Source: Pontibacter sp. Tf4 (GTDB taxonomy: Bacteria > Bacteroidota > Bacteroidia > Cytophagales > Hymenobacteraceae). Taken from it: a stretch of 64,000 nt of DNA. The notes under the pieces were generated by a model. The model was not told where the DNA came from and did no database searches. It worked only from the letters and a program-made list of their open reading frames with translations. This document shows, piece after piece, positions 17,744 to 63,902 of the stretch (the stretch's first letter is position 1; the number at the start of each line of letters is the position of its first letter). The stretch is taken from positions 1-64,000 of the forward strand of contig NZ_JACKZC010000006.1 of assembly GCF_014212495.1 (NCBI RefSeq), given 5' to 3'. The translations under genes and the position numbers were made by a program.

Positions 17744-18123
17744 ACGTGCGGGGATAATATTTTCTTATAAAAGCTGAAACTATAGTTCCTTTAGCAGCGG
17801 CGAACAAATAGTTTACGGGATAACATTTTATCCAATAACACGCCCGGCAAAATACTATAGAATTACTCTATTAAAGTATGCATTATTGACTGAACTAAAA
17901 AGGGAAATATCATTCCTGTGCTGTAGTAATGCAGCACGTTTTTGTATATGTAAAGAAGTCAGACACTGGAATACCTGCAGGAAGCTTACCAGGCAAACAC
18001 AAACAACGCTGCTAACTATAGCAGCAGATTCAAAGACCTCAATTACTACTAATGCTAAAGGTTGATGCAGAACAAATTGTACAGTTACTTCCTGCGAAAA
18101 GAAAGCTACTACCACTCAAAAAG
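17744..18123. other. Intergenic stretch upstream of the ATPase
   Basis: No gene supported; a short open frame at 17855-18115 has no recognisable features. The region contains the first perfect AACTATAGTT (17778-17787) and several ACTATAG half-sites, and must hold the ATPase promoter, although I found no clear TAnnTTTG on the minus strand. Confidence 0.5.
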
Positions 18124-18153
18124 AATCCCGGCCTGTTCCCACAGACCGGGATT
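18124..18153 (-). terminator. Terminator of the adhesin/PorP/OmpA operon
   Basis: AATCCCGGCCTGT (18124-18136) and ACAGACCGGGATT (18141-18153) form a 13-bp stem with one G-U pair and a 4-nt loop. On the minus strand it is followed by CTTTTTGAG. It lies about 50 bp past the stop of the OmpA-family gene. Confidence 0.85.
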
Positions 18154-18201
18154 TTAGAACATTTGTCAACTTGGTTCAGGATAGATCTAAACTATAGCCT
18201 G

Positions 18202-19392
18202 CTATTGCATGAGGTATAGTTCTGTTTTGCGATTGTCCCTGCCTTTCTCGTCGCGTACTTCATTCTCAAGGGTTATAACAAACTTCTTGCTGCTGAAATA
18301 CTTCTCGATGTGATTTTTAACCTGCAAAGCGCGGTTGCGGCTAACATAATCTTTTGCTTCAGCGGTTCCATATCCATCCGAAAAGCCTTTTATAACAAGT
18401 TCGGTCCCTTCTGGCTGCTTGTTCAGGAATCTTGACAAAGCCGATACTTCTTCCAGGTTCAGATAAACACTATTGAAGGCATAGAATAACTTCAGCGCAG
18501 GTAAGGCAGCTTTTACTTTAACTACAGTTGCAGGAGTTATAACTTCTTCTACAACTATACTTTCTTCTTCAACTACTGCAATCACTTCTTCTTCAGGCAG
18601 TACTTTCTCCAGGATGTAGGCTGTATAAAAGGAATCCTGCTCATTAGAAGCTGAGATCCACATCTGGCTATCTGCTACTTTTTTATAGTATGCATTGTAG
18701 GCACCTGCCGCGTTCATAACAGGGTCTGCTTTCACTGGCGTACCTGCCTCACCTGTTGCCAGGTTTAGCGGCGAGCTATAGTTATAGGCACTAGCTGCTT
18801 CCTTGCGCGAGAAGTATAAGGTATCGTTGGCGACATACGGGGCAAACTCTTGCTGGCGGGTATTTACGGCTTTACCAAGGTTTTTAGGTTTGGTCCAGCG
18901 GTTGTTCTCCCACTTGCTAAGGTAGAGGTCTTCATACCCTTGTGACCTGCCAAGTTCTGCCGATACCAGGAGCGTCATTTTATCTTCAGACAGGAATATA
19001 CCCAGGTTGTAGGCATGATTGCGCATCTTTGGCAAAGCACGCTCTCCGGTCTTTTCAAAGCTTCCGTCTTTTAAACTATAGAAGGAGATAACTTCCCGGC
19101 TGCGGCCATCCTTGTGGTAAACGTATAGTTCGCCGGTAAATTTGTTGCCACCCACCACTGCGTTTATTAAACCTGTGTTTAGTACCAGTTCCTTTTTAGA
19201 AGTCTCGCTTTTACCACGTTGCTCCGAATAAATGTATTGTCCCTGATCTTCTTTTAGGGTATAAACCAGCAAATCATTTTCCAGCAAAATAAAGTCTGCC
19301 AGCTCTGATTTGGTTTGCTTTAACGATACTTGTGCCTGAGCTATAGTTCCGGCAGCCAGCATAAAGGCGATCGTGTATAGTATTTTCTTCAT
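18202..19392 (-). CDS. OmpA-family outer-membrane/peptidoglycan-associated protein
   Basis: A 396-residue exported protein from the ATG at 19392, which gives a proper signal peptide (M-K-K-I-L-Y-T-I-A-F ... A-Q-A-Q). The ATG 18 bp upstream would overlap the PorP stop codon and add six polar residues, so I prefer 19392. The middle (about 90-270) has repeated beta-strand stretches like the PD40-type propellers common in these proteins. The last 100 residues are an OmpA-like peptidoglycan-binding domain (L-F-Y-A-F-N-S-V-Y-L, then V-I-K-G-F-S-D-G-Y-G, then N-R-A-L-Q-V-K-N-H-I). It is the third gene of an operon after a large adhesin and a PorP/SprF protein, an arrangement typical of type IX-linked surface adhesin clusters. 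A terminator follows at 18124-18153. Confidence 0.88.
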   Translation of the reverse strand: MKKILYTIAFMLAAGTIAQAQVSLKQTKSELADFILLENDLLVYTLKEDQGQYIYSEQRGKSETSKKELVLNTGLINAVVGGNKFTGELYVYHKDGRSREVISFYSLKDGSFEKTGERALPKMRNHAYNLGIFLSEDKMTLLVSAELGRSQGYEDLYLSKWENNRWTKPKNLGKAVNTRQQEFAPYVANDTLYFSRKEAASAYNYSSPLNLATGEAGTPVKADPVMNAAGAYNAYYKKVADSQMWISASNEQDSFYTAYILEKVLPEEEVIAVVEEESIVVEEVITPATVVKVKAALPALKLFYAFNSVYLNLEEVSALSRFLNKQPEGTELVIKGFSDGYGTAEAKDYVSRNRALQVKNHIEKYFSSKKFVITLENEVRDEKGRDNRKTELYLMQ

Positions 19393-20405: not shown

Positions 20406-23400
20406 TTACTTCTTAAGAATGGTCACGACACCTTTTTTCACCAGGTTGATATCTTTCACCTGCACGATGTAGAAGAAGGCGCCCTGCAGGATCTGTCCGT
20501 TCAGGCCGCGTCCGTCCCATCCTTTTTCCGGATCTGTTGTATGGAACAGCCTAACCCCAGCTCTGTCGAATACCTCGATCTCCACACTGTTGTAGAAGCG
20601 AAGCTCCGGTATGGTCCAGGTGTCGTTCATGCCATCACCATTTGGCGAGAATGCATTCACGATCTTCAGTTTATCAACTGGTTTGGTATAAGGCTCTTTG
20701 TTAAGGGTAAATACCTTTTCGATCGTGTTCTGGTAAGGGTCGGTACTGCGAACTCTGATGCTGAAAGTAGTTTTACCAGATAAACCGTTGTTGCTCTTCA
20801 GGTATACCTTATCACCTCTGATCTCGAACAGGCTGTTACCTGCATCCCCTTCACCAGCTACCAGCGTGTACACAAATTCAGTGTCGTCGGCATCAGTCGT
20901 AGTTAGCGTTCCAATCACATCATCTGTCTTGGCTTCGGGGACAAAAGTAGTCGCACTGAAAGCAAGGTTGGTAGGTGCTTTGTTCGGTTCTACTACTACC
21001 GATATGGTAGCTACTTTGCTGTTACGGTTGGTCGTGTTCGGTGCAGGAATTAACTCACCGACAAGTACGTAGGTGCCGGCTACCAGGCCGTTGTAAGTAC
21101 CCTGTGCCCAGGTTACGCCAATCGCTTCTTTCTGACCGTTGGTGTAGGTTACCTCTACTGTTGCCGGAAGTGGCACATTGGCATAAGTAGTTCTGATCGG
21201 AACATTTATAGTTGCCAAAGTCGCTACAGATACAATGTTCTGACGAACGGTTACAGTTTGTGTTGCTGTCGTTTTATTGCCAGATGCATCGGTTGCCGTC
21301 CAGGTAACGATGGTTACACCTGCCGGATATTCTGATGGCGCATCGTTGGTTACAACTATAGCTGCAGCATCGCAGTTATCAGCAGTTACCGGAGTTCCAA
21401 GGTCTACATTAGAAGCAGTTGTTTTACCAGCATCCACATCCAGCACCAGGTCTGCCGGGGCAGTTATAGTTGGTGCGATGTTATCAACTATAGTTACGAT
21501 AGCTGTAGCCCTTGATTTGTTACCTGCTTTATCGGTTATAGTTAACTTAACTGTGTTTTCACCAACATTGCTGCAGCCGAACGTATCCTTGTCAAGTTCC
21601 AGCGTTTCTACACCACAGTTATCGGTAGAGTTATCGTTTACCTGTGTTGCCTTGATAGTTACCGTACCGTTCTTATCAAGCTCAGCGGTGATATTTTTGG
21701 CAAATGCAGCAGGTGCTATTTCATCAACTATAGTTACAGTTGCTTCTTTAGAGGCTACATTGCCGTTCACATCTTTTACTGTTAACGTCACAGTTTTAAC
21801 ACCAGCATCCTCGCATGTAAACGCTGCTACATCCAGCTCCATACCGGCAATTCCGCAGTTGTCTGCCGAACCATTGTCGACCATAGCAGGAGTTATAGTT
21901 GCGTTACCTGTTGCATCCAGTTTTACAGTGATGTTCTGAGTTATAACTGTCGGAGCCAGGTCATCAACTATAGTTACCGTTGCTTTTTCAGAAGTTTCGT
22001 TGTCATGGGCATCCGTTACAGTAAGTATCACCGTGTTGTCGCCGATATTTGAACAATCGAATGCAGCTTTATCTATAGTTAAGGTTACAGTTCCGCACAC
22101 ATCCGAAGAACCGTTGTCTACGTCAGCCGCAACTATAGTTGCTTTACCGTTTGCATCCAGTTTTACGGTGATGTTTTTGGTAAGCGCAATCGGAGCAATC
22201 TTGTCTTCTACAGTAACTATAGCTGTTTCGGTGGATTCGTTTCCGTTGTTATCAGTTACAGTCAGGGTTACTGTGTTGGCTCCGATGTCAGAGCAATCAA
22301 AAGCAGTTTTGCTCAGGCTCATGGATTTGATACCGCAAGCATCTGAACTTCCATTGTTAATGTCTTCAGCCGTTATAGTTGCATTACCAGCTGCATCCAG
22401 CTGAACGGTGATGTTCCGGGTGATAACAACCGGAGCAACCTTATCTTCCACGGTAACAATAGCCGTAGTGGTGTGCGTGTTGTTGTTAACATCTGTTACC
22501 GTTAATACAACTTCGTTCTCTCCTACTGTACTGCAATCAAACGTCGTCTTATCCAGCATTATCGTTTTAATGCTGCAATTGTCAGAAGATCCGTTGTTAA
22601 CCTGCGAGGCAGTTATAGTTGCGTTACCCGTTGCATCCAGCTGAACCGTGATGTTCTTCGCACGCGCTACCGGAGCAATATTATCAACTACTATTATAGT
22701 TGCCTCAGCAGTTGCTTTGTTGCCATTCTTATCGGTAACGGTTAAGATTACCGGATTGGCACCCAGGTTAGCGCAACCAAAGGTAGTTTTAGATAAATCT
22801 AAGGTTACATCACCACATGCATCAGAGCTTCCATTATCTACTGCCGCTGCGGTTATAGTTGCAACACCGTTGATATCAAGCTCTATGGTTACATTCTGCG
22901 CTTTAGCGATCGGGATAACCTTATCCTCTACAGTAACTATAGCCGTAGCTGTTGCTGCATTGCCGTTGTTGTCGGTTACCGTTAATATTACGGAGTTATC
23001 ACCAATATTACTGCAATCAAAAGCAGTTTTGCTTAGGCTCAAAGATTTAATGCCGCAAGCATCTGAACTACCGTTATTAATCTCATCCGCAGTTATAGTT
23101 GCATTACCAGTTGCGTCTAACTGAACAGTGATATTCTTAGCAAGCGCAACCGGAAGTGTTTCGTCTACTATAGTAACTATAGCTGTTGCAGCATGACTGT
23201 TTCCGCTCTTGTCTGTAGCAGTTAAGGTTACTGTGTTCTCGCCCACATTGCTGCAGTCGAAAGCAGTTTTAGACAGCACTAACGTTTCGATACCACAGTT
23301 GTCAGTTGAGCCGTTGTTTACCTGTGCTGCGGTTATAGTTGCTTTGCCAGTTGCATCTAATGTTACCATTATGTTTTTGGCAATAGCTTTGGGAGCAACC

Positions 23401-25952: not shown

Positions 25953-26738
25953 ATAAAGAGGTTGGTTGTTGATTAGTTGGCTGGAGTAAAACATTGCTGT
26001 TTGCTGGTGCAAAACACGGCCAGAACTATAGTTACCTGAAAGTGGCACCTGGCTGCGAAGGTCGACTGCACGTTATAAAGCAACCGAAGGAAAACGGTTG
26101 ATACAGCGCCCTGATGAGCAGGACGTGCAACAGCATGTTTCATAAATAGGGGGTAAAGGTTTGGCTATAAATTGAAATTTGATACTGAATACATGTAAGC
26201 TTCAGCTTTATGCTGAAACTGGTTTAATTTCATCGTTTTCGGTAGTAACTCTGGAAGCGGGAAAGCGGGGAGGGCTATATAGGTAGCACCTTAAAACCAA
26301 ACAGTTAAAACCCAAATACTATATATTTCAGGATGTTAACTGTAATGCAAATACCAAACTATAGTTCGGTTTCTGCTGAGGCTGAATACTTAAAGTAGAT
26401 CTTGTAATAAGAGCATTTAAATAGTAGCGCAAGTTATAGTTTAAGTTAGCGTCCATCCAATATAGAATTGCACTGGTTTGTCTCGTATTAAAAACGGACA
26501 CAAATAATTCCCGAAGAAGTGTTAATTACTATTGTAGCAGAAATGCTTTTGATAGGTCTGATTGGAAGCAAAAAGGGTTTAGCCCGAAAAGATGGCGATT
26601 GTAATGGAAGGACAAGAACTATAATTGCAGTTACGCTTACTCAACTTGTGTTATAAGCAAGCTCTTAACTGCTTTGCCTGTTTAATCAAGAGCAACTCCG
26701 GACAGGATAACACAACCTCTTTTTATCTGTAAGTAGCG
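25953..26738. other. Intergenic stretch between the adhesin operon and CRP-AraC gene
   Basis: No gene I can support. It contains perfect AACTATAGTT copies at 26024-26033 and 26357-26366 plus half-sites. It must hold the promoter of the adhesin operon, but no clean -7 element was seen. A frame at about 26513-26656 reads V-A-E-M-L-L-I-G-L-I-G and is vaguely MgtC-like, too short to call. Confidence 0.4.
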
Positions 26739-27719
26739 CTAAACTATAGTTTTCGAAGCTGCTAAATACTCCTTGGGGCTAATTCCTTCTGACTTCTTAA
26801 ATGCTTTGTAAAATCCGCTCCTCGAGGCAAAACCTGCTTGCAGGGCTAAAGCTTCGATGGTATAGTTTTGCAGAGAACCATCTTTCTCTAACTGCAATTT
26901 GAGGTATGCAATGCGGTAGTTATTTACAAAATCGTTGAAACTGGAGTTAGCAAACACGTTCAGTACCTGCGATAGTTTGTAGGAAGGAATCTGCAGCCTC
27001 GCGGCCAGATCATTGACTTTTAACGTCTTTTCTTTATAGCATTCAGACGTAAGCATGAATTGCTCTACCCGCTGAAGCAGGTATCCGCCATCCTGGTCCT
27101 GTTCCTTAACTTTCGCCTGCTTTATGATCCGTGATAGTGTTTCCGGCTTCATGTCCAGGAACGAAGCAACACACTTCAGGGGTAGCCGTTCGATGTACCC
27201 GGGCTTGGAATTTACAAAGTATAAGTAGCGCTCTGTCGCATTTCCAACACGAATAACATGCGTCCTCTCCTGTGCATCGCGGTAATAATTCTCGTACACC
27301 TGCCGGATAATATAATTCAGGTCAAAATAGCGCTTATACCAGTCCTGTAATATATCGGTATGTACGCCCAGCACAAGCGTAGGCTCTATGGCAACTATAG
27401 CTTCCCGGGATGGTTGCTCGCCGTACAGCCCCGACAAGGAACTGACAAACTCGTTCTCGACCGAAATATAGGTAGTAATCCTTTTCCGTTTGTGTGTGGA
27501 GTACGCCATAAGCGCACCTTCTCTTATAAAGTACATGTAATTGCACCTGCCCCCTTCGTACAGCAGGTGCTCCCCTTCCTGTAGTTGTATCGATATAGCG
27601 TGTTTATAGAATTCGTTCTGTAGTTCTAAGCAGACAGGGTGTTGGGTAGCAAGCAGGGCAAGAATGTAGGTAATATCATCCGGATCTGCTGGCTTAAACT
27701 GTAAAGGCTTTTCACGCAT
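26739..27719 (-). CDS. CRP-like sensor fused to AraC-type DNA-binding domain
   Basis: A 326-residue regulator. Residues about 30-130 look like a cyclic-nucleotide-binding/CRP jelly roll (E-G-E-H-L-L-Y-E-G-G-R-C, F-I-R-E-G-A-L-M-A-Y). Residues about 175-215 keep a CRP-type helix-turn-helix remnant (L-P-L-K-C-V-A-S-F-L-D-M-K-P-E-T-L-S-R-I-I). Residues about 235-322 are an AraC/XylS pair of helix-turn-helices (L-A-A-R-L-Q-I-P-S-Y-K-L-S, then A-L-Q-A-G-F-A-S-R-S-G-F-Y-K-A-F-K-K, G-I-S-P-K-E-Y). CRP-like N-termini normally pair with only one winged helix-turn-helix, so this looks like a two-reader fusion. The last codons (K-T-I-V-stop) are written as the AACTATAGTT palindrome. Upstream, at 27822-27854, is a phased repeat that may be its operator. 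The target genes are unknown. Confidence 0.85.
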   Translation of the reverse strand: MREKPLQFKPADPDDITYILALLATQHPVCLELQNEFYKHAISIQLQEGEHLLYEGGRCNYMYFIREGALMAYSTHKRKRITTYISVENEFVSSLSGLYGEQPSREAIVAIEPTLVLGVHTDILQDWYKRYFDLNYIIRQVYENYYRDAQERTHVIRVGNATERYLYFVNSKPGYIERLPLKCVASFLDMKPETLSRIIKQAKVKEQDQDGGYLLQRVEQFMLTSECYKEKTLKVNDLAARLQIPSYKLSQVLNVFANSSFNDFVNNYRIAYLKLQLEKDGSLQNYTIEALALQAGFASRSGFYKAFKKSEGISPKEYLAASKTIV

Positions 27720-28944: not shown

Positions 28945-29364
28945 TCTATTTTTTATTTTTTCACTGCCAGGCTTAGGAAACCTGCTTATCAGACAAGTAT
29001 ACTGTTCCGACTTGTAAGAGTTATTGGTTACCTGCCTCAGCTTACCAGCCTTTGGTTTAATACACTTAACAAACCCAATAACTATTTTCACTTTAAAAGA
29101 AGCAGGAGAGACACCATAAAAGCGGATTGCCTGATTGTGAAATCGCTGGTGCTATTAACGGTAGTTATATACTTCTACCAGCCTTATAGTTGGCGTCAAG
29201 CGTCATATGATGCAATTAACATTTATATAACATAGTTTGTCGATAATATTAAGATTTATCTATCTAACTTTATGACAGTTAATTTATTAAGCGTCAGTTA
29301 AAAATTTGATCTCGCTAATAGGCTTCTATTCCTATCCGTGAAATCAAAAAGAATTCTTTTACAA

Positions 29365-30645
29365 ATGTATTCCTTGCTCCTAAAATCGCTCCAACCTAAA
29401 GTCAGTTTGCTGTTAATTCTTTTTGGGATTTTACAGCCATTTAATAGTAAAGGCCAGATCATAATTTCCCAGGCGGATGTAGCTCTTGTGGAAAACTTTG
29501 ATGACATGGGCCAAACAGGCACTACTTTTCCAACAGGTTGGTCAGCTGTAAGGCATACCGGAGACAAAACCATCGGAGAGGCACTCACAATTTCTGTTTC
29601 TGATGGCTCGGGAGGGAGCCTGGAAGGAAAGATGTATAATGTCGGAACAACAAACGCAACAGACAGGGCCCTTGGGGCTTTGAGTTCGGGATCGACGGGG
29701 CCAAGGTTTGGAGCGGGATTTACTAACCAAACCGGAGTGCCTGTACTTTCAATCGAGTTGTCGGGAGTTATGGAGCAGTGGCGTTCAGGGTCTTCAAATG
29801 AGACAAATGAAGTTTACACATTTGAGTATAGTTTAAATGCCACCGGGATAAATGATGCTGCTGCAAGCTGGGTGCCATTACCAAAGATGGATTTAGCTGA
29901 AATACTTACTACTACTACAACTGCAGGTGCTGTGAATGGCAACCTGCCTGCCAACAGAGCGGCCATCTCCGGAAATATAGACTTAACCCTTGCAGAAGGG
30001 GATACCATCTGGTTCAGGTGGTCCGGCAAAGACGCCTCTCTTCTCGATGGCATGTACGCTATTGATGATCTATCAGTAAATTTCAGATCTGTTCGTAGTA
30101 TAAGCATTCTTCCTGTAGAGCTTATTTCTTTTACAGCAAAGCCACATAACAATGCTACCCGGCTTACCTGGATAACAGCCTCCGAAAAAAACAGCGACCG
30201 CTTTGAGATTGAACGAAGCCCTGATGGAAGACAATTCGAAACGATAGGAACCATAAGAAGTGCGGGCAACAGCAACATTAAAAATACCTATCATTTTGAG
30301 GATAGAAGACCGTTTTCCGGCACAGCATACTACCGCTTAAGGCAGGTAGATACAGATGGCTCGCATATGTATTCCAGAACAGTGCCGGTTAAGCGATCAC
30401 CTAGCAAGGAAGGTTTGCAACTATATCCAAATCCTGTACGGGATGTATTGTATGTATCTTTCAAGGACCATAAGGCCCCGGAAAAGATCTTTATTATAAA
30501 CCACTTCGGTAAAGTAATCAAGACTTTTGCCTGTACCGGTACTGAATACAACTATAGTTTACCCGTTTCGGACCTGCAACCTGGCAGCTACGTTTTAACA
30601 ACAAGTGAACGCAAAGAAACAGTTAAATTTCTTAAGCTGAATTAA
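29365..30645 (+). CDS. Secreted protein with T9SS type A sorting tail
   Basis: A 426-residue protein counted from the ATG at 29365. A GTG at 29338 would add nine residues in frame and is also possible; both give a hydrophobic leader ending S-K-G-Q. The body (about 40-250) is a beta-rich domain beginning V-A-L-V-E-N-F-D-D-M and resembles the N-terminal domain of Bacteroidota surface proteins. Residues about 255-340 are a fibronectin-like module (T-R-L-T-W-I-T-A-S-E-K-N-S-D-R-F-E-I-E-R-S). The last 75 residues are the type A sorting tail (L-Q-L-Y-P-N-P-V-R-D-V-L, then S-G-S/P-G-S-Y-V-L type strands ending V-K-F-L-K). It should be exported by the type IX system and anchored or released outside the cell. 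The ligand or enzyme activity is unknown. Confidence 0.85.
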   Translation: MYSLLLKSLQPKVSLLLILFGILQPFNSKGQIIISQADVALVENFDDMGQTGTTFPTGWSAVRHTGDKTIGEALTISVSDGSGGSLEGKMYNVGTTNATDRALGALSSGSTGPRFGAGFTNQTGVPVLSIELSGVMEQWRSGSSNETNEVYTFEYSLNATGINDAAASWVPLPKMDLAEILTTTTTAGAVNGNLPANRAAISGNIDLTLAEGDTIWFRWSGKDASLLDGMYAIDDLSVNFRSVRSISILPVELISFTAKPHNNATRLTWITASEKNSDRFEIERSPDGRQFETIGTIRSAGNSNIKNTYHFEDRRPFSGTAYYRLRQVDTDGSHMYSRTVPVKRSPSKEGLQLYPNPVRDVLYVSFKDHKAPEKIFIINHFGKVIKTFACTGTEYNYSLPVSDLQPGSYVLTTSERKETVKFLKLN

Positions 30646-31471: not shown

Positions 31472-31515
31472 CTAAACTATAGCAAGTCTGGTTTAAACTA
31501 TAGTTACTATACTTA

Positions 31516-32415: not shown

Positions 32416-32788
32416 AAGGATTCATTTTAATGAAGTGAATGAAAGTAGAGCTGCTTGTTTTAAACACGGCAACTTATGAACTGTATAACGGTGAGTTGCT
32501 ATACTTGGATGCTTCCGATTTGTTTGCGATAGCAGAGGCTGACATAGCTTTCATATTCCCGGGTTTGTATCTGGAAACAGAAAGATGATGGCTGCTAACT
32601 ATAGTTGAAGGCCTGTTTTAAATAACTGCACTTTATAGTTGCGTAAGGCGTACCTGAAACTGCATACTGAAAATAAAACAAGGTGCCATCCTTTCTACGT
32701 ACTTCCAGTATACTCCAGGCTGCAATGTAACCTTTGATCCGATGGCAAAGCGCTGTTTAACAACCCGTACTCTTAAACATCAATTCCT
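32416..32788. other. Divergent intergenic stretch
   Basis: Lies between the leftward metallopeptidase gene and the rightward PAP2 gene. It contains a perfect AACTATAGTT at 32597-32606. A weak promoter-like TAACCTTTG at 32738-32746 has one base too many against TAnnTTTG. No gene seen. Confidence 0.4.
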
Positions 32789-37840: not shown

Positions 37841-37912
37841 AACTATAGTTTGGGCCTTAACTGTGACCGATAACTATAGTTTGTCGCGGGTTTCTGAAGC
37901 CCAACTATAGTT
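37841..37912. repeat. Three AACTATAGTT palindromes at exact 31-bp spacing
   Basis: Perfect copies at 37841-37850, 37872-37881 and 37903-37912, each followed by TTG or TTTG (G-rich after the second and third bases). The start-to-start distance is 31 bp both times, close to three helical turns. They lie between the ArnT-like gene and the thioredoxin operon, 240-310 bp upstream of the thioredoxin ATG, in DNA with no coding capacity (37638-37957). Confidence 0.9.
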
Positions 37913-37957: not shown

Positions 37958-39595
37958 CTAAAAATATATCAGCCAGGCTCCTACCCTTCTTTTTTGATGC
38001 AGCCGCTTCACAAGCCATTGTCGTTCGGCTGGCAGTTCATTTTTCACCAGCAGCACTACCGGTTGTTGTATTAGTTGAACTATTCTGATGGAGTCTTCCG
38101 GCTGGTTCAGTTTTAGATAATACTGCTTCCATGTAGTATCTTTTTCAAACTGGGTTTCCCGGTCGAGGTTTCTGTTGTGGTCCTGTATAGTTACAAAGTT
38201 ACATCCCAGCTCAAAGGCTAAAGACGGAAGCAGCCTGTCGTATACTACTATGCGTCGCCCGTGCAGTTCTTTTTGCTGTAACACCTGCCTTAGTGCTACC
38301 GCGCTGTTGGTTAGAGCAGGGTTTGCCTGCAACAGGTAAGACACAAAAGGTAAAAGAAGCACAGTAAATATAAAAGAACCCAGCAATAGTTTAGGCACGG
38401 CTGTGTAATTGCTTCTCCAGATCAGGAACAGGCAGAGTACCATCAGCACAGGCAGGCTTAACGACCAGCTATACACCTGCAGACCTGGTTGCAACAATGG
38501 CCCTGCTATAAGCGCAACCGCCAGGAAAATATAATACCCCATTGCCCATTTGCTTACTTTGTGCAGGCTCCGCTCCGGAAGCCGGTATAGTAGCCAGGCC
38601 ACCAGTAACGCCAACCCGGCAAACAAAGGCAGGATATACAGGATCAATTTGGAGCTGGAAAAAGAGAAAAATAAAAGCGGCACCACCAACCATAGCATAA
38701 ACAGCCACTTGAACCGCCGCTGAAGGTCAGAAAGCCATTTATAGTTGCTGAGCAAAATTACAGACCAGGGTAGACTGAGCAAGGGGGCAAGTACAATATA
38801 AAACCACCAGGGCTTTTCACGGCTAAAAGCTTCTGCGTGCGCGTAACGGTCAACGATATGCCGGATAAAAAAGTAATCGACAAACTGCCTGTCCTGCAGC
38901 ATCAGGTACACAAACCAGCTGCCGCCCAGTACCAGGAACAGCGCAAAACCAGCTAACAGGTGCTTTACATTAGTTTTGCTCCCAGTTTCAGTTTTGTGGA
39001 AGGCATAACTTATAACAACAAGCACCGGAAACACCAGCCCCACCGGGCCTTTCGTTAAAAAAGCCAGCCCCAGCAAACTATAGAACAGGTAAACCCAGCC
39101 GTGTCGCGCCGTACTTTTATGCTTTACCCACGCCCAGATAGCCAGTAATTCGAAGTTCGCCAGATAAGAATCCGTCGTTAAATTTCGGGCCGAGATCAGT
39201 ACTACTGGCATTGTGAAATACACAAGCAGCGCAGTTACCGCAATTTCCCTGTTCCTGAAAAGCTCCTTTGCCAGCAGGTAAACCAGCAACCCTTGCAGCA
39301 ACAAAGAAATCTGCAGAAAGAAACGTACCCCAAAACTGTTCACACCAAACAGCGCCATGCCACCGGCCGAAATGAGGTAGGTTACAGGCGGTTTATGATA
39401 ATGCAGAATGCCCAGCAAACGTGGGTGCAGCCAGTCGCAGGTAACAAGCATATTTCTGCTGATCTCGGCATAGCGAGCCTCGCTGGTTTCCAGTACGCCC
39501 CACCCGCCAAGGTTACAGAGCAGTGCCAGAAACATGATGAGAAAGATCGCCCAAACTATAGTTTTGCCGGACAAGCGGAACACGCGTAGTCTCAT
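37958..39595 (-). CDS. ArnT-like GT39 polyprenyl-phosphate-sugar glycosyltransferase
   Basis: A 545-residue integral membrane protein with about twelve membrane segments. The first periplasmic loop has the GT39/ArnT motif E-A-R-Y-A-E-I-S-R-N-M (near 40), followed by L-H-Y-H-K-P-P-V-T-Y. ArnT moves L-Ara4N from undecaprenyl phosphate to lipid A; relatives such as the Rgt proteins of rhizobia move galacturonic acid. It is the last gene of the operon epimerase, GT2, LAB_N, ArnT-like (8 bp after LAB_N). No Ara4N synthesis genes (ArnA/ArnB) are present, whereas the first gene resembles a UDP-glucuronate 4-epimerase, so a uronic acid is the more likely sugar. The sugar and acceptor are inferred. 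Confidence 0.87.
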   Translation of the reverse strand: MRLRVFRLSGKTIVWAIFLIMFLALLCNLGGWGVLETSEARYAEISRNMLVTCDWLHPRLLGILHYHKPPVTYLISAGGMALFGVNSFGVRFFLQISLLLQGLLVYLLAKELFRNREIAVTALLVYFTMPVVLISARNLTTDSYLANFELLAIWAWVKHKSTARHGWVYLFYSLLGLAFLTKGPVGLVFPVLVVISYAFHKTETGSKTNVKHLLAGFALFLVLGGSWFVYLMLQDRQFVDYFFIRHIVDRYAHAEAFSREKPWWFYIVLAPLLSLPWSVILLSNYKWLSDLQRRFKWLFMLWLVVPLLFFSFSSSKLILYILPLFAGLALLVAWLLYRLPERSLHKVSKWAMGYYIFLAVALIAGPLLQPGLQVYSWSLSLPVLMVLCLFLIWRSNYTAVPKLLLGSFIFTVLLLPFVSYLLQANPALTNSAVALRQVLQQKELHGRRIVVYDRLLPSLAFELGCNFVTIQDHNRNLDRETQFEKDTTWKQYYLKLNQPEDSIRIVQLIQQPVVLLVKNELPAERQWLVKRLHQKRRVGAWLIYF

Positions 39596-42852: not shown

Positions 42853-42974
42853 TTAGTACTTGTTGCATTTGTACCTGCTGCTACCAGCATGGTACTGCCA
42901 GCGCTTATCCCTCATAAGCTGCAGATTGAGTCATACTGTTCAGGTATTATTTCATAACAGTTAGCTATAGTATT

Positions 42975-45900
42975 ATGCTAAATAAAATTATTTCTTTTTC
43001 GATACAGAATAAGCTGATCATTGGCTTATTTGTAGCGGGGCTGATCGTTATCGGGGTGTATAACGTGACGCGCCTGCCTATAGATGCCGTGCCCGATATT
43101 ACCGATAACCAGGTACAGGTCATTACCGTGGCGCCCTCGCTGGGTGCCCCTGACATTGAGCGCCTGATCACCTTCCCGGTAGAACAGGCCAACAGTAACA
43201 TTCCCGGCATCAAAGAGATCCGCAGCTTTTCCCGTTTCGGCTTATCGCTGGTAACTATAGTTTTCCAGGAAGGGGTGGATGTATACTGGGCCAGGCAGCA
43301 GGTGGCCGAACGCCTGCAAACCGTGCAGCAACAGATTCCAGAAGGTGTTGGCAGCCCGGAACTTGGCCCTGTAACCACCGGCCTCGGCGAGATCTACCAA
43401 TACATGGTACGTCCAGAGCCGGGTTACGAAGGTAAATACGATGCCATGGAGCTGCGCACCATACAGGACTGGATTGTGCGCAGGCAGCTGTTAGGTGTGC
43501 CGGGCGTGGCCGATGTAAGCAGCTTTGGCGGTTACCTGAAACAATACGAGATCGCCATAGATCCTTCGCGCCTGAAATCCTACGGTCTTTCTATTTCCGA
43601 TGTGTTTACAGCCCTGGAAAACAACAACCAGAACACCGGCGGCTCCTACATCCACAAAGGCGATGCGGTCCTTTTTATCCGCAGCGAAGGCCTGTTGGGT
43701 AGCATCGATGATATCAGATCCATAGCGATCCGGAACACACAGAATGGTACTCCCATTTACATCCGCGATGTGGCTGATGTAAACTATGGCCATGCCACCC
43801 GCTTCGGAGCCATGACCTACAACGACCAGGGCGAAGTAGCCGGGGCGGTGGTGATGATGCTGAAAGGCGCCAACAGCAACCAGGTAATCAAAGAAGTAAA
43901 AGCCCGCATAGCCCAGATTCAGGAGTCCCTGCCCGAAGGCGTGGTAATTGAGCCTTTCCTGGACCGTACCAAAATGGTGAACAATGCGATTGGTACCGTA
44001 GAAAAAAACCTGCTGGAAGGCGCCCTGATCGTGGTGTTCGTACTCGTGCTGTTCTTAGGAAACCTGCGGGCCGGGCTTATAGTTGCCTCTGTCATTCCGC
44101 TCTCCATGCTGTTTGCCATAACCATGATGAACACCTTTGGCGTGAGCGGCAACCTGATGAGCCTGGGCGCCCTGGACTTTGGTCTGATCGTGGATGGGGC
44201 TGTCATTATAGTGGAAGCTGTGCTGCATACTTTCCATTTTAACAAGCGCTTTGCCACTACCAACCGCATCAACCAGGCGCAGATGGATGATACTGTACAG
44301 CAGTCGGCAAGCCGAATGATGAACAGCGCAATTTTCGGGCAGATCATCATTCTTATCGTTTACCTTCCTATTCTAACACTGCAGGGCATCGAGGGTAAAA
44401 TGTTCAAGCCCATGGCACAGACCGTTTCCTTTGCCCTGATCGGGGCGGCCATCCTCTCGCTGACCTACGTGCCGATGATGAGTGCACTTTTCCTGAGCAA
44501 AAAGATCAGCCACAAGGATACGTTCTCTGATAAGATGATGGCCCGCATCGAGAACTTTTACCAGAAGTACCTGCGCCGCGTCATCGAGTTCCCGAAAGCG
44601 ATCATAGCTGGTGCGGTTGTGCTTTTTGCAGGCGCTGTGCTGGTTTTAATGTCGCTGGGTGGCGAGTTTATACCTGCCCTGGAAGAAGGCGACTTTGCCG
44701 TTGATACCCGTGTACTGACGGGCAGCAACCTGAACACAACTATAAAATCAACACAGCAGGCGGCCGGCATTTTGTTAGAGCGTTTCCCGGAAGTAGAGAA
44801 AGTGGTCACCAAGATTGGCTCCGGTGAAATACCAACCGACCCCATGCCCCTTGAGGCCAGCGACATGATGGTGATCCTGAAACCTAAAAAAGAATGGACC
44901 TCTGCGACATCGTTCAACGAACTGGCTGAAAAAATGGGTACCGCCCTGCAGGATGTACCCGGTATTACGGCAGGTTTCCAGTACCCGGTGCAGATGCGCT
45001 TCAACGAACTGATGACAGGTGCCCGGCAGGATGTGGTGTGTAAGATATTTGGCGAAGACCTGGACACCCTGGCGCGTTACGCCCAAAAGTTAGGCAGCAT
45101 TGCAACTACTGTTGATGGCGCCACCGACCTGTATGTAGAGACCGTAACGGGCATGCCGCAGATCGTGATAGACTATAACCATGCTGCCATTGCCCAATAC
45201 GGCACCAACATAGCGGATATCAATCGCACCGTAAATGCCGCCTTCGCCGGTGTTAGCAGCGGCCTTGTATTTGAAGGCGAACGGCGCTTTGACCTGGTAG
45301 TGCGACTGCAGGGCGAACTACGCAAGAACCTGACCGATGTACAGAACCTGCTCATTCCTACCCCTGTCGGGCAACAGGTGCCTTTGTACTTAATGGCTAA
45401 TGTAAAGCTGGAAGAAGGCCCATACCAGATACAACGCGAAGATGCCAAGCGCCGCATTATGGTAGGCTTTAACGTGCGCGGCCGCGATGTACAGAGCATA
45501 GTGGATGAACTACAGCAAAAAGTACAGCAGCAACTAAACCTGCCACCCGGCTACTATGTGGTGTACGGCGGCGCCTTCGAAAACCTTGAGGCTGCCCAGC
45601 AGCGCCTGAGTGTGGCCGTGCCGGTCTCGCTGGGCCTGATATTCCTGCTGCTCTACTTTGCTTTCCGGTCGGTGCGCTATGGGTTGCTGATCTACTCGGC
45701 TATTCCGTTGTCGGCTATAGGAGGTATTTTTGCGCTGTGGGTCCGGGATATGTCTTTTAGTATTTCGGCGGGTGTCGGGTTTATAGCACTGTTTGGTGTG
45801 GCCGTGCTGAACGGGATTGTGATGATCGCAGAGTTTAACCGCCTGCGGCTGGCCGGCGGACTTAGCCTGAAGGAGATCGTGCTGGAAGGTACTAAATCGC

Positions 45901-48489: not shown

Positions 48490-48553
48490 GCCCGATGCAC
48501 AACTATAGTTCAGAGTGCTATAGTTCGGATAAACTATAGCACAACTATAAAAC

Positions 48554-51168: not shown

Positions 51169-52416
51169 TTAATTATACCTGTCCGGTGAGAAGGCGTCGG
51201 TTAGCAGTTGCGCTTTTCTGTTCAGCAATTGTTCCGCCAATACTTTGCCGGTGGCCGGGGCCAGGCTCACACCCATCATACTATGGCCGGTACCGAAAAG
51301 CACATTGCTCCAGCGCTGCGTGGCGCCAATATAAGGCAGCCCATCCGGCGAACATGGGCGCAACCCGCTCCAGATCGTATCCTGCTTTGGGAAGGTATGA
51401 TTAAAGTTGGCGTAGTAATCCGGAATAGCATCAAAAATACCGCGTACCCGCTTCTGGTTTATAGTTTGGTTGGTACCGGTTATCTCCATAGTGCCGCCAA
51501 AACGCACTTGCTCCCCAAATGGAGTTACGGCAACTTTTCGCTCGCACAGGATGGCAGGAATTTGCAGCGCCGGCTGGTTCTGCTGCATAAAACTATAGCC
51601 TTTGCCCGAGAGCATCGGCAGGTAAATACCCAGCTTATCTGCCAGCTCGCCGGACCACGCACCCGCGCAAACTATAAGCTGATCGCAGGTGATACCGCCT
51701 TTGTTGGTAACTATAGTTTGAATGCGGTCGCCTTTATACTCAAACTTCAACACCCGCGCCAGCGGCACCATGTTCACGCCTTTTGCCTTCAGGTAATCTT
51801 TCAAAAAGCCATGCAGTTTAGACGGATCCAGGTGAGCATCGCCTGTAAAATGCACGGCACCGCGCACATCCAGTTCTACATCCGGTTCCAGTTGCTGCGC
51901 TTCCTGCCTTGAGAGGACATTTGCTTCCAGCCCGTGCTGGTTTGCCAGGTGCGCCATTTCCACTTCTTCCCGCTCCATTTCCGGAGTCCGGTATAACATC
52001 AGCAGGCCTTTTTCTTCCAGCCCTATCTGAGATTCAGGGTGTTGTTCTGCAAAATCCTGGTACAGGCGCTTGCTCAGCAAACTCAGGTTTTTCAGGTACG
52101 GAATACTGTGCTCTACGTGCTGTTTGGTAGATGCCCTGTAAAAATGCAGGCACCACTGCAGCAAACGCCTGTCCAGCCGGGGGTGAATGTAAAAAGGACT
52201 GGTAGCGGAGAACATCCACTTCAGTCCTTTACTGATCATACCCGGCGAAGCCAGTGGCACAATATGGCTCGGCACGATCATCCCGGCATTACCTGTCGAG
52301 CAGCCCTGTTGCATGTCGCCCTGGTCGAGCAGGGTTACGTTAAAGCCTTCTTCCGAAAGGTAATAAGCCGTAAACAGCCCCACAATGCCGCCGCCGATTA
52401 TAGTTACGTTGCTCAT
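51169..52416 (-). CDS. FAD-dependent D-amino acid (D-hydroxyproline) dehydrogenase
   Basis: A 415-residue flavoprotein of the DadA family, N-terminal Rossmann motif I-G-G-G-I-V-G-L-F-T-A-Y-Y-L, then G-C-S-T-G-N-A-G and, near the C-terminus, S-G-L-R-P-C-S-P-D-G-L-P-Y-I-G and G-H-S-M-M-G-V-S-L-A-P-A. It oxidises a D-amino acid to an imine. It is followed on the same strand by a 4-hydroxyproline epimerase gene 1 bp upstream, so the natural substrate is most likely cis-4-hydroxy-D-proline, giving pyrroline-4-hydroxy-2-carboxylate. It is a single-subunit enzyme, like HypO and unlike the three-subunit form of Pseudomonas. Several AACTATAG half-sites and one perfect palindrome (51719) occur in the gene. 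Substrate inferred from operon context. Confidence 0.88.
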   Translation of the reverse strand: MSNVTIIGGGIVGLFTAYYLSEEGFNVTLLDQGDMQQGCSTGNAGMIVPSHIVPLASPGMISKGLKWMFSATSPFYIHPRLDRRLLQWCLHFYRASTKQHVEHSIPYLKNLSLLSKRLYQDFAEQHPESQIGLEEKGLLMLYRTPEMEREEVEMAHLANQHGLEANVLSRQEAQQLEPDVELDVRGAVHFTGDAHLDPSKLHGFLKDYLKAKGVNMVPLARVLKFEYKGDRIQTIVTNKGGITCDQLIVCAGAWSGELADKLGIYLPMLSGKGYSFMQQNQPALQIPAILCERKVAVTPFGEQVRFGGTMEITGTNQTINQKRVRGIFDAIPDYYANFNHTFPKQDTIWSGLRPCSPDGLPYIGATQRWSNVLFGTGHSMMGVSLAPATGKVLAEQLLNRKAQLLTDAFSPDRYN

Positions 52417-59633: not shown

Positions 59634-61412
59634 ATGGGAGAAACTACGGAAGAGGAAAAGGCCACCACACCAGACAATGAGTTTCATTTGCCCGGACTTT
59701 CGGTGCTGCGCGATGCGGTGCAGAATGCCTCTAAAAAAGTACCGCCGCGCAACAAACTGCAACAGGATGCCATTGCCGGCATGACCACCGCCGTAAGCAG
59801 CCTTCCTGATGGCATGGCAAACGGCTTATTGGCAGGCGTAAACCCCATTTACGGATTATATGCCTGTATAGCAGGCCCTTTAGTTGGTGGTATTTTTTCC
59901 AGTACCCAGTTAATGATGATCACTGCCACCAGTGCCTCTGCGATCATGGCCGGCCAGACCATCCGTAGCCTGCCTGCCGAAGAGCGGGCACAGGTATTTT
60001 TCCTGCTGGTGGTGTTGATCGGGGTGGTACAGGCCATTATGGGACTGTTAGGCATGGGCCGGCTGACGCGTTTTGTGTCCTTTTCTGTTATGACCGGTTT
60101 CCTGACCGGCATCTCGGTTCTGTTGGTCATGAGCCAGCTCCCTACTGCCACCGGCTATGCCCCGGAAGGCAGCAACAGCATCGTCCAGACATTTGATTTG
60201 TTGCTGCACATAGGTCAGGTTCACCTGCAAAGCGTAAGCATGGCTGCCTTAACCATTCTGCTGGCTATCTTTCTGCAGAAAACCCCGCTCAAAAAATTCT
60301 TCGCTTTAATTGCCATTGCTATCCCCTCGCTTATAGTTTATTTCTTCGATCTGGAAGGTGTAAAAGTGGTGCAGGATATAGGTGATATCAGCGGCAGTAC
60401 GCCAAGCCTGGTGGTGCCCCCGTTTTCGGCCATCAGCCTTGAGGTAATTACCGGTGCCATAGCCGTAGCCATCGTTATCCTGATACAGGGAGCCGGGGTA
60501 AGCCAGAACGTACCCAATAAAAACGGCGAGAGCACCAGCACCTCCCGCGACTTTGTGGCACAGGGAGCCGCCAATATTGCCAGCGGTTTTATACAGGGCT
60601 TGCCCGTTGGTGGGTCGTTGGGAACTACGGCTGTTAATGTGCTGGCGCGGGCGCAAACCCGGTGGGCCGTCATTTTCTCTGGCCTGGCAATGACGCTTAT
60701 TGTTGTGGCACTGTCAACTATAGTTGCTCATACGGCCATGCCTTCTCTGGGTGCCATGCTTATACTGGCCGGCATCCGGAGTATCAAGCTTTCAGATATT
60801 GTTGCAACCTGGAATTCGGGGTGGAGTTCGTGGCCCTCGTTGCTGGCCGGCGGTGTAACTTTTGGCGCGACGCTGGTTTTGCCTATCCCTACGGCAGTGG
60901 GCATCGGCGTGCTGCTTTCGGCTTTCCTTTTTGTCACACAATCCTCTACCGAGATAACCTTGGTTGAGCTCAGAAAACGATCGGATGGAACTATAGAAGA
61001 ACACAAGCCACCCAAAACCCTGAAAGGAAACCAGGTAACGGTACTGAACGTGTATGGCAACCTGTTTTATGCCGGCGCCAGAACCCTGGAACACCTGCTG
61101 CCTAAACCTGAAGACGCCCGGAACCCGGTGGTGATCCTCCGCCTGAGAGGCCGGAAGAAACTGGGGCCAACGCTGGTTTCGGTGCTGGCAGACTATGCCT
61201 CCCTGCTGCATGATGTAAACGGCAAACTATACCTGACGGGTGTCAGCGAGCAGGTGTACAGGGAAGTAATGCACTCCGATAAACTGCGCATCAATGGTCC
61301 GGTAAAAGCATTCAGACAAGAACCCGGCCTGGGCATATCAACCCACAACGCGGTAGTGGACGCAGAAGGCTGGCTGCTGGATAGCGAGGAAAATGAAGCT
61401 GAAAAGCGATAG
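59634..61412 (+). CDS. SulP-family anion transporter with STAS domain
   Basis: A 592-residue transporter. The N-terminal 60 residues are cytoplasmic; the membrane domain follows (A-I-A-G-M-T-T-A-V-S-S-L-P-D-G-M-A near 50, then 11-12 membrane segments). The C-terminal part from about residue 460 is a STAS domain (G-N-Q-V-T-V-L-N-V-Y-G-N-L-F-Y-A-G-A, V-V-I-L-R-L-R-G). SulP proteins carry sulfate, bicarbonate or similar anions. It has a perfect AACTATAGTT in its coding sequence (60716-60725). It follows the BASS gene by 119 bp and may be co-transcribed. The substrate is not predictable by eye. Confidence 0.9.
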   Translation: MGETTEEEKATTPDNEFHLPGLSVLRDAVQNASKKVPPRNKLQQDAIAGMTTAVSSLPDGMANGLLAGVNPIYGLYACIAGPLVGGIFSSTQLMMITATSASAIMAGQTIRSLPAEERAQVFFLLVVLIGVVQAIMGLLGMGRLTRFVSFSVMTGFLTGISVLLVMSQLPTATGYAPEGSNSIVQTFDLLLHIGQVHLQSVSMAALTILLAIFLQKTPLKKFFALIAIAIPSLIVYFFDLEGVKVVQDIGDISGSTPSLVVPPFSAISLEVITGAIAVAIVILIQGAGVSQNVPNKNGESTSTSRDFVAQGAANIASGFIQGLPVGGSLGTTAVNVLARAQTRWAVIFSGLAMTLIVVALSTIVAHTAMPSLGAMLILAGIRSIKLSDIVATWNSGWSSWPSLLAGGVTFGATLVLPIPTAVGIGVLLSAFLFVTQSSTEITLVELRKRSDGTIEEHKPPKTLKGNQVTVLNVYGNLFYAGARTLEHLLPKPEDARNPVVILRLRGRKKLGPTLVSVLADYASLLHDVNGKLYLTGVSEQVYREVMHSDKLRINGPVKAFRQEPGLGISTHNAVVDAEGWLLDSEENEAEKR

Positions 61413-61619
61413 GGCTGAGATCTACCTTATTGCTGCACAACTATAGCATAACGCAAGCTTCTTTACCGGATACCGAACCTGCGCACTGCAAATTGAACAA
61501 ATGGTGTTTTTGAAACTATAAACTATAGCCTGGCCAGTGCCAGCGGCAGCCCACCAGCAGAGAACATTGAGCAGCAGGCTCCAAACTATAGTTTACAGTT
61601 ACTGGCAGCGTTGTGTTTA

Positions 61620-62498: not shown

Positions 62499-62934
62499 TA
62501 GCTTTATCTTATTTTAAATTGAACACTGCTCCTATCAACGAAGAAAAGTATAGTATGTTTTGATGACGGCTGGTACGGAACTATAGCTGTACCTTATCAG
62601 TAAAAAGGCTTTGCATTTCCTGGTTTGCTATAGTTGTAACCTTTCAGGAAACAGCATAGCATCTTGCCTTTGGGGTATTAATCAGATCAGGGAAGTTCTA
62701 TGTTTGTCCAGTTTAAAACCATCTGCAAAGCCAGGCCACCTATCATCCTTACACGCTATCGCTGATTAGCTTATATGAGAGACTTACGCTGCAGATCTCC
62801 GATCTCGTATAGTTATAGAAATATCTTGCTCCGGTGTTGCAACAGAAAGCAGAAGCAGGTAACTTAAATGCAGGTTAGGCACAAAACTTGTGTTGCCACC
62901 AAACTATAGCCCTGAAAAAACAAATCCTGCCACT
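62499..62934. other. Divergent intergenic stretch, no gene seen
   Basis: Lies between the Rieske fusion (leftward) and the SIMPL gene (rightward). AT-rich, with AACTATAG half-sites at about 62580, 62628 and 62902. An in-frame TTG at 62890 extends the SIMPL frame but is not its likely start. Confidence 0.5.
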
Positions 62935-63666
62935 ATGAGAAATTACACCAGCGCCATCCTGTTTTCGGTAGCCATTATCATCTCGGCCATTGTGCTGGGC
63001 AATGCCTACATCAAACGCAGCAAGCCCGAAGGCGAAATTGCTGTAACCGGCAACGGCAGCCGCGATTTTACCTCTGACCTTATTGTGTGGGAAGGCAGCT
63101 TTATAAAGCAGGGGCAGGACCTGAAAACCGCATCGGCCCAGCTGGAGCAGGACAAACAGATCATAGCCGGGTACTTAACCAAAAACGGTATCAACCCCAG
63201 CGAGGTAGTGTTCAGCGCCATCGAAATAACCGAACAGCAACGCCCCAAATATTCCGACAAGGGACAGTACATGGGCGATGAATTCATCGGTTACCGGCTC
63301 ACCCAGTCTATCCAGATCACCTCCAAAGAGATCGAAAAGATAGAGGACATTTCGCGCCGCATTACAGAGCTGCTGAACGAAGGCATACAACTGAACTCGC
63401 AACCGCCGCGCTACTACTATACCAAGCTATCGGACCTTAAAATTGAACTGATCTCGGAAGCGACGAAAGATGCGCGCGAACGGGCCGAAAAGATCTCACA
63501 GAACTCGGGCAGCGAGATCGGCGACCTTATTTCTGCCAGCCTCGGCATTTTCCAGATAACCGGGCAGAACTCGAACGAAGAATACTCGTGGGGTGGCACG
63601 TTCAATACATCCTCTAAAGAAAAAACAGCTTCTATTACCGTGAAACTAAACTATAGGGTAAAATAA
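62935..63666 (+). CDS. SIMPL (DUF541) domain protein
   Basis: A 243-residue exported protein from the ATG at 62935 (M-R-N-Y-T-S-A-I-L-F), which gives a signal-anchor helix at residues 5-25; the longer frame from a TTG at 62890 was rejected. The rest is a SIMPL domain: I-A-V-T-G-N-G-S-R near 35, S-D-L-I-V-W-E-G-S near 50, G-Y-R-L-T-Q-S-I-Q near 120, and D-A-R-E-R-A-E-K-I near 180. Function of the family is unclear. It ends K-L-N-Y-R-V-K, with the AAC TAT AGG codons overlapping the palindrome core. Two perfect AACTATAGTT copies follow the stop (63679 and 63717). Confidence 0.88.
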   Translation: MRNYTSAILFSVAIIISAIVLGNAYIKRSKPEGEIAVTGNGSRDFTSDLIVWEGSFIKQGQDLKTASAQLEQDKQIIAGYLTKNGINPSEVVFSAIEITEQQRPKYSDKGQYMGDEFIGYRLTQSIQITSKEIEKIEDISRRITELLNEGIQLNSQPPRYYYTKLSDLKIELISEATKDARERAEKISQNSGSEIGDLISASLGIFQITGQNSNEEYSWGGTFNTSSKEKTASITVKLNYRVK

Positions 63667-63902
63667 GCGGCAACTATAAACTATAGTTACACCATGTAGC
63701 TTGTCTGTAATAGTGCAACTATAGTTTGCCTGTTGGCTGCCGTTCCTCTACCCTGACTATAAAAACGCCCCGGGCTATGCCTGCAGGCTACGAGAGTTGA
63801 GAAATCAGTATATTAGCACGCCTTTTGCTTTGCAGCAGAAGCACCAATTCCGTTTACAAACTATAGCACACCTGCAAAACACCTAACAACACGAACACCT
63901 AT

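Follow-up and report, generated by a model that had tools for sequence, protein, structure and literature searches.

To our knowledge, dialects of DNA uptake sequences are known only from two families of Proteobacteria, the Neisseriaceae and the Pasteurellaceae, whose receptors, whether demonstrated or predicted, are type IV minor pilins. The DNA uptake sequences (DUS) of the Neisseriaceae fall into dialects, one genome holding two of them (PMC3630211, in part; here and below 'in part' marks sources drawn on in part), and the uptake signal sequences (USS) of the Pasteurellaceae likewise have dialects, their receptor being predicted to be a single protein in coevolution with the word (PMC12616744, in part). 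Another kind of genome-wide iterated word is the highly iterated palindrome HIP1 (GCGATCGC) of cyanobacteria which, like the alternate palindromes (HIPs) that replace it in some lineages, is generally paired with a matching methyltransferase (PMC4390886, in part). Here we analysed a window of 64,000 nucleotides (the whole stretch of DNA presented, positions 1 to 64,000 of contig NZ_JACKZC010000006.1, forward strand) from Pontibacter sp. Tf4 (Bacteroidota; Hymenobacteraceae), in which an earlier inspection of the letters, the original prediction, had picked out AACTATAGTT as a HIP1-like iterated palindrome with a sequence not known to it from the Bacteroidota. The palindrome belongs to a real and strong dialect system of iterated words that is present in most of the sampled genomes of the genus.

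Exact matching placed 25 perfect copies of AACTATAGTT across the window, from 17778 to 63726, in agreement with the at least 24 copies in about 46 kb that had been counted originally, whilst 100 dinucleotide shuffles of the window gave a mean of 0.07 and a maximum of 2. The excess of half-sites noted at the same time was also borne out, the + strand holding 68 AACTATAG and 51 CTATAGTT (palindromes counted in) where about one of each is expected, and copies were found both between genes (12) and inside them (13) on a crude open reading frame (ORF) map, as described. The genome of the window (G000; 4,452,287 bp in 23 contigs) contains 1,477 copies against 4 of the reversed sequence, which rules out an enrichment limited to the window. 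An order-1 Markov model over 464 kb of G000 gave an expectation of 0.56 as against 151 observed, and the runner-up 10-bp palindrome by enrichment in the same 464 kb had 4 copies against 0.19. Chance or base composition as the source of the excess is ruled out by the shuffles, the reversed control and the Markov model. The likeness to HIP1 stands for the genome-wide distribution and its scale and falls for the palindrome, which is not the unit but an overlapping pair of an asymmetric word.

This unit is about 8 bp long, AACTATA followed by a purine, and two overlapping units make AACTATAGTT. At least three dialects fill the same slot in Pontibacter (taken in the GTDB sense, with 50 of the 200 Hymenobacteraceae genomes compared), namely AACTATAG (AAC), AAGTATAA (AAG) and AGGTATAG (AGG). 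The unit is asymmetric in all three and the palindrome is frequent in AAC only; the logos read [A/C]AAC-TATA-R for AAC (220 kb), AAAG-TATA-[A>G>C, hardly T]-[A/C] for AAG (353 kb) and CAGG-TATA-G-C for AGG (240 kb). Among the one-mismatch variants in 464 kb of G000 the TATA core was nearly intolerant of change, the variants at positions 4 and 5 totalling 13, and position 2 was tolerant, AACTATAGCT alone accounting for 129 sites against the 151 palindromes. Were the palindrome the unit, the AAG dialect would favour its counterpart AAGTATACTT, yet the 353 kb hold 14 of these against 730 AAGTATA. Overlapping dyads do exceed the product of the column frequencies, with 128 against 49 in AAC and 28 against 4.4 in AAG. 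Insertion of a small repeat as the origin of the sites is ruled out, since the shared flank is at most about 1 base and orthologous sites differ mainly by substitutions.

Across the 200 family genomes AACTATAGTT occurs 104-1,477 times in eight, all of one genus and consisting of G000 and its seven best UvrA matches, against 0-28 times in the 42 other genomes of the genus and 0-8 times in the 150 genomes of other genera. As a property of the phylum or the family the motif does not hold, only 8 of 200 genomes, a single clade, having more than 28 copies, and comparison with relatives revealed a genus-wide set of dialects instead. Dialects were assigned by eye from the top words in samples of 13-60 kb from 49 genomes (G131 was left out), and were set on a tree of UvrA DNA from 49 of the 50 genus genomes, whose bootstrap is not fully settled. 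On this tree the eight AAC genomes form one clade (98/99) and the AGG genomes one clade of 12 (100/100), whilst the AAG genomes are paraphyletic, so that AAG (AAGTATAA) is probably the ancestral dialect of the main clade and AGGTATAG and AACTATAG are probably derived. With both strands summed, AAGTATAA was counted genome-wide 2,246-7,030 times in the 19 AAG genomes as against 276-453 times in the AGG clade of 12, and AGGTATAG 2,823-5,222 times in that clade as against 173-833 times in the other 38 genomes; control words reached 80 against the top AAGTATAA count of 7,030 and 102 against the top AGGTATAG count of 5,222. That top AAGTATAA count belongs to G109, a genome of 5.2 Mb, and corresponds to up to one site per 740 bp. 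Enrichment over the dinucleotide expectation in dialect-bearing samples was about 12-40 times. Eight genus genomes have no clear word, their AAGTATAA counts being 1.3-3.7 times the reversed control, and single samples point to further words in G002 (ATATATAA) and G117 (CCATACC and GGTATAC). A long one-strand run of AGGTATAG at 64-69 bp spacing (G073:C1:1944098-1946633) looks like a CRISPR (clustered regularly interspaced short palindromic repeats) array with the word in its repeat.

Within the AAC clade the two words grade into each other. The counts of AACTATAGTT and AAGTATAA run in inverse order (G000 1477/788, G119 1300/790, G085 1164/921, G099 1124/900, G018 1087/2125, G033 330/3911, G058 232/4476 and G043 104/6128; Spearman −0.976, n=8). 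Both G043 and G058 are nested inside the clade, and their AAG-rich state is therefore a return to AAG or an incomplete change. At distinct positions in this pair AAGTATA was gained 6 times (2 of them from AACTATA) and lost 6 times, and AACTATA was gained once and lost 10 times: AAC is fading there while AAG holds.

Both strands carry sites, and these occur in all reading phases in which no stop arises. By crude ORF calls, both strands counted, densities per 10 kb in genes and between them were 19.8 and 88.7 for AACTATA, 14.5 and 63.8 for AAGTATA, and 15.7 and 57.0 for AGGTATA, as compared with 1.3 and 2.0, 0.8 and 2.0, and 0.7 and 0 for three control words. The three 7-mers were 3.6-4.5 times, and the palindrome 7.5 times, as dense between genes as within them, against 1.6 and 2.6 times for two of the controls, the third having no intergenic copy. 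Occurrence on both strands, in all stop-free frames and more densely outside genes rules out a coding artefact. Convergent gaps were denser than divergent ones in the pooled AAC, AAG and AGG samples and in six longer stretches (142 against 61 in density in contig C1 of G000), the exception being contig C2 of G000 with 34 against 46 in only 1.2 and 3.5 kb; divergent gaps were the least dense in most sets. Tandem gaps had no clear orientation in AAC genomes (116 to 103 in G000, 86 to 93 in G085, 85 to 97 in G099) and gave 58 to 79 in the AAG samples. A promoter or regulatory element is ruled out by the sparse divergent gaps and the unoriented AAC tandem gaps, a pattern from which the AGG tandem gaps depart. 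Intergenic strand counts matched those of permuted words in six of seven stretches and deviated in the C1 contig of G000 (133 and 191, p 0.0015), which was more skewed than its permuted words; a polar signal is ruled out, the skew being shared by permuted words partly in C1 and fully elsewhere.

Presumed acquired DNA, comprising two island-like stretches and one sampled plasmid, is poor in sites. One of the stretches lies in the window (Table 1) and the other at C2:1-25000, with 9 AACTATA against 225 in the following 75 kb. The plasmid, 40 kb from P. kalidii, carries 17 AAGTATA, 8 AACTATA and 7 AGGTATA, with 4, 8 and 8 for the reversed words; its AAGTATA density is about one fifth of that of AAG chromosomes, a yardstick taken from other genomes that may not be its own dialect.

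Sites turn over more slowly than matched words. Comparison of AAC genomes showed AACTATA to be retained at 53-63% of its aligned sites, whereas permuted words reached 29-39%. In the pair G085-G099 (identity 0.90) whole words were retained at 0.73 in genes (permuted words 0.55) and at 0.69 between genes (permuted words 0.59), and intergenic motif columns were 0.86-0.92 identical as compared with 0.73-0.86 for the flanks. Positions also partly persist through the change from AAC to AAG in the mixed genomes, in which 17 of 223 AACTATA sites of G000 (15 positions) read AAGTATA, against 21 of 1,096 for the control (p 4e-5). For the AAG genomes (15 of 211 sites reading AAGTATA, from 4 positions; control 12 of 1,813) and the AGG genomes (19 of 137 reading AGGTATA, from 4 positions; control 0 of 77) the evidence of persistence is weak and pseudo-replicated, 17 of the 19 conserved AGG sites lying in one gene (L022:17014-17604), presumably alkB, in which Tyr-Ser/Thr codons supply the TATA. 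By eye, codons beside the tyrosines of this alkB-like gene seem to change with the dialect (Ser or Thr at one site, and Asn, Lys or Arg at a second), and the word may push amino-acid changes there.

The closest likeness is to the DUS of the Neisseriaceae, which likewise run to thousands of copies, differ in dialect from clade to clade, and include a mixed-dialect genome and many sites with a single mismatch; they too lie both in genes and between them, and they form overlapping dyad pairs in Simonsiella muelleri (PMC3630211, in part). With the USS the word shares the dialects. A lineage-specific overrepresented word in thousands of copies, dialects and mixed genomes that follow phylogeny, and non-polar placement in permissive DNA are all found here, the convergent gaps of C2 in G000 and the oriented AGG tandem gaps excepted. 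Unlike DUS, the word has a host in the Bacteroidota, is about 8 bp long with a TATA core, and in G109 reaches up to one site per 740 bp. The type IV minor pilin receptor of those systems (ComP, or the predicted ComN/PpdA of the USS; PMC12616744, in part) was not found, type IV prepilins (PF07963) being detected in none of the 50 Pontibacter genomes, hence no ComP-type receptor. As the receptor class that defines a DUS went undetected and uptake itself is predicted from sequence, we do not class the word as a DUS.

We nevertheless propose, by analogy and at about even confidence for and against, that it is a genome-wide uptake or self-recognition word working like the Neisseriaceae DUS, and we infer a DNA-uptake receptor as its reader and a bias in transfer as the cause of its accumulation. 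A putative sequence-reading receptor would prefer DNA carrying the asymmetric word A-N-S-TATA-R, and DNA of the same species would thereby be favoured in uptake and recombination; sites born by point mutation would spread, and persist where they are tolerated by the gene product. As the receptor changed, the preferred word would shift base by base and so give rise to dialects among relatives, genomes caught in mid-shift would carry two dialects, and in the AAC dialect two units would overlap head to head as the palindrome. The observed pattern fits Neisseria-type uptake dialects better than HIP1, Chi, KOPS (FtsK-orienting polar sequences) or a promoter. Of the several functions that the original prediction had listed, DNA uptake is the one put forward here; the undetected type IV prepilin receptor counts against it.

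Several results weigh against an uptake word. The prepilin search that returned 0 of 50 genomes had a control that was positive in 8 of 14, and the PilB/GspE-type ATPase family PF00437 matched in 50 of 50 genomes with a best score of 25.9 bits over a short stretch, 3 of 50 being above the cut-off; with only partial, weak ATPase matches and undetected prepilins, the known kind of receptor is missing. No receptor was found among the families searched. In favour of uptake, ComEC matched in 50 of 50 genomes, although, being universal in the genus, it does not discriminate; against it, the comEC of G000 itself carries a frameshift near residue 541 of about 705 (L151, G000:C23:50000-54000) and the gene is broken in G046 and G089. 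Also in favour, competence in Riemerella, of the same phylum, depends on four essential proteins that do not resemble known machinery, and DUF5689 stems from the Riemerella competence screen (PMC8459023, in part). Present in 22 of the 50 genomes, this domain does not follow the word; nor, in these genomes, does any of the prepilins, PF00437, ComEC or the three methyltransferase families considered below.

The balance of gains and losses points the same way. Parsimony in G085/G099 gave 18 AAC sites gained and 93 lost against 564 and 487 for permuted words, the gains being mostly point substitutions from near-matches. AGG sites were gained and lost 9/22, 13/24, 4/35 and 9/43 times in four overlapping triples, and four small triples together gave 9 gained and 23 lost, although in two of these triples losses were not in excess; AAG gave 5 gained and 15 lost pooled over five small triples. 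The small sets without excess loss were G081/G113 (3/3) and G046/G107 (5/3) for AGG and G055/G067 (3/2) for AAG. An active word at balance should lose less, and parallel gains bias the count in the same direction, the parsimony being biased by these and by faster-evolving flanks; outside G043/G058 it has the look either of decay or of an active word whose parallel gains are misread as losses. Two features of placement fit poorly as well. In AGG genomes the tandem gaps lean against gene direction, 15 to 63 near uvrA, and AGGTATA runs 41 to 69, opposed to the genes, in the tandem gaps of four related genomes (G113, G103, G071 and G107; stretches L096, L089, L093, L101 and L156-L170), and on the P. 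kalidii plasmid AAGTATA still exceeds its reversed control.

An alternative on the HIP model, which we think unlikely, is that a methyltransferase reads the word and that modification-directed repair or replication creates and protects it, the dialects following the specificity of the enzyme. Precedent exists in the replacement of HIPs between lineages along with their methyltransferases (PMC4390886, in part). Adenines occur on both strands of the TATA core, and the search covered some methyltransferase families only. A methyltransferase tracking the motif, which the original prediction had proposed to look for, was not found in PF01555, PF07669 or PF02384, other methyltransferase families not having been searched. 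PF01555 matched in 31 of 50 genomes, with no match in G000, G119, G099, G085 or G058; PF07669 (47 of 50) and PF02384 (50 of 50) occur as patchy subfamilies. Among the matches listed (for PF02384, 3 of 3 in G000, 3 of 4 in G085 and 2 of 3 in G119), G000, G085 and G119 share just one kind, judged by position and length: a short one of about 310-330 aa, which we take to be PrmC/HemK. The unit, moreover, is asymmetric, unlike the palindromic HIPs.

Chi and KOPS are short, frequent, lineage-specific asymmetric words that are strand-polar, Chi words typically being frequent in genes and differing between lineages. Differences in Chi between species are on record (PMC3630211, in part). A recombination or replication signal of this sort, read by a DNA-processing enzyme, would share with the Pontibacter word its shortness, asymmetry, variation between lineages and frequency in genes, and the strand skew of C1 in G000 agrees with it; we consider it improbable, since the other six of seven stretches have no polarity beyond that of permuted words (measured on intergenic strands, not on replichores), sites prefer intergenic DNA and overlapping dyads are favoured. 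No more probable, in our estimate, are sites that weak selection maintains for the binding of an abundant protein of the nucleoid or of chromosome organisation. Such a protein would suit sites found throughout the sampled chromosome, tolerated in genes and turning over more slowly than matched words, but would need thousands of sites under selection whose spelling changes between close relatives, and presumed acquired DNA is poor in sites, although none of these counterpoints is decisive. Mutation bias alone, in which context-dependent mutation or repair drives sequence into the word with no reader at all, we hold to be very improbable. It would explain why one-off variants abound at the outer positions and why gains arise mainly by point substitution from near-matches, whereas mutation alone would hardly yield an enrichment of about 12-40 times, spellings that differ between sister clades, or retention exceeding that of matched words, and no single ancestral word dominates the 18 gains, the commonest source, AACGATA, supplying at most 4.

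If the word does serve uptake, a dialect system in Bacteroidota whose prepilins escape detection would imply a separate origin of self-recognising DNA exchange, based on another receptor. The three dialects, the eight graded genomes and the eight that lack a clear word offer a comparative handle on that receptor; if uptake is not the explanation, the rewriting of thousands of sites between close species still needs one. More speculatively, and with rather less confidence than in the uptake reading itself, DNA self-recognition free of type IV pili could extend from Pontibacter to the Hymenobacteraceae and related Cytophagales, one receptor family reading A-N-S-T-A-NNN and its specificity drifting base by base, each time rewriting thousands of chromosomal sites; on this view the AAC clade, with its graded genomes, would show one dialect in the course of replacing another. 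This formula takes in AACTATAG, AAGTATAA and AGGTATAG together with words from single samples, ACCTAGGG or ACCTAGGT in other genera of the family and ACGTACCC/T in one Fibrella sample. Among the matches listed in open-access literature (subscription papers lying mostly outside the search) the word was not described, and there was no uptake sequence from Pontibacter or Hymenobacter and no Pontibacter methylome; the listed matches to the word itself concerned, by title, Plasmodium falciparum.

Outside the genus 69 of 80 named loci were sampled (at least 12 kb; two from the genus), together with 36 samples, some of them shared and one consisting of N only. Several words found there fit A-N-S-T-A-NNN, and most of the other samples held nothing comparable. 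ACCTAGG was iterated in G080, G004, G015 and Solirubrum puertoriconensis, with 27-37 copies against 1.4-1.9 expected, about 17-23 times the dinucleotide expectation (L263, L266, L268 and L180; genera g4, g5 and Solirubrum). Unlike in these genera, CTAG is strongly avoided in G000 (0.08 of expectation). ACCTAGGG/ACCTAGGT, GGCTAGCC and ACGTACC were each seen in single samples of about 20 kb from other genera, the last near uvrA of Fibrella forsythiae (L209; 29 against 2.3 expected), a species that we take to belong to another family of the Cytophagales. Single samples also showed GGCTAGC(C) iterated in Hymenobacter sp. BT559 and CTACCCC in H. sediminis. In G114 (L129) CCCTACCC/GGGTAGGG is iterated with a coding-strand preference of 25 to 3; given this bias and what we take to be a resemblance of CCCTACCC to KOPS, the G114 word may be something else.

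Table 1. Perfect copies of AACTATAGTT and the site-poor stretch in the 64,000-nucleotide window; gene context from the crude ORF map, ORF strand in brackets.
Feature	Position	Context
site-poor stretch	1..17700	5 AACTATA over 17.7 kb, counted on both strands; the remaining 46.3 kb hold 170
AACTATAGTT	17778..17787	intergenic; first palindrome past the site-poor stretch
AACTATAGTT	21486..21495	within 1,880-aa ORF 20406-26048 (-)
AACTATAGTT	21726..21735	within ORF 20406-26048 (-); exactly 240 bp after the 21486 copy
AACTATAGTT	21966..21975	within ORF 20406-26048 (-); 240 bp after the 21726 copy
AACTATAGTT	22131..22140	within ORF 20406-26048 (-)
AACTATAGTT	26024..26033	close to start of ORF 20406-26048 (-)
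AACTATAGTT	26357..26366	intergenic
AACTATAGTT	26742..26751	3' end of ORF 26739-27719 (-)
AACTATAGTT	30550..30559	within ORF 29338-30645 (+)
AACTATAGTT	31496..31505	intergenic
AACTATAGTT	32597..32606	intergenic
AACTATAGTT	37841..37850	intergenic; first of trio at 31 bp spacing
AACTATAGTT	37872..37881	intergenic; second of trio at 31 bp spacing
AACTATAGTT	37903..37912	intergenic; third of trio at 31 bp spacing
AACTATAGTT	39554..39563	within PMT-family ORF 37958-39595 (-)
AACTATAGTT	40795..40804	within ORF 40241-40981 (-)
AACTATAGTT	41866..41875	within ORF 41021-42088 (-)
AACTATAGTT	42845..42854	intergenic by crude map; overlapped by 148-aa ORF with TTG start
AACTATAGTT	43253..43262	within AcrB-family efflux ORF 42975-47345 (+)
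AACTATAGTT	48501..48510	intergenic
AACTATAGTT	51709..51718	within DAO-family ORF 51169-52416 (-)
AACTATAGTT	60716..60725	within sulfate-permease ORF 59634-61412 (+)
AACTATAGTT	61584..61593	intergenic
AACTATAGTT	63679..63688	intergenic
AACTATAGTT	63717..63726	intergenic

The site-poor stretch at the start of the window is probably acquired DNA or an island. A control word was found 3 times in it and 6 times in the remaining 46.3 kb. It encodes a protein with a HEPN domain and contains two ORFs of 1,867 and 1,157 aa, the second of which had no Pfam match at 1e-8. A phage search with one protein of the window gave no match. In the 1,880-aa ORF the evenly spaced palindromes between 21486 and 21966 suggest a repeated domain.

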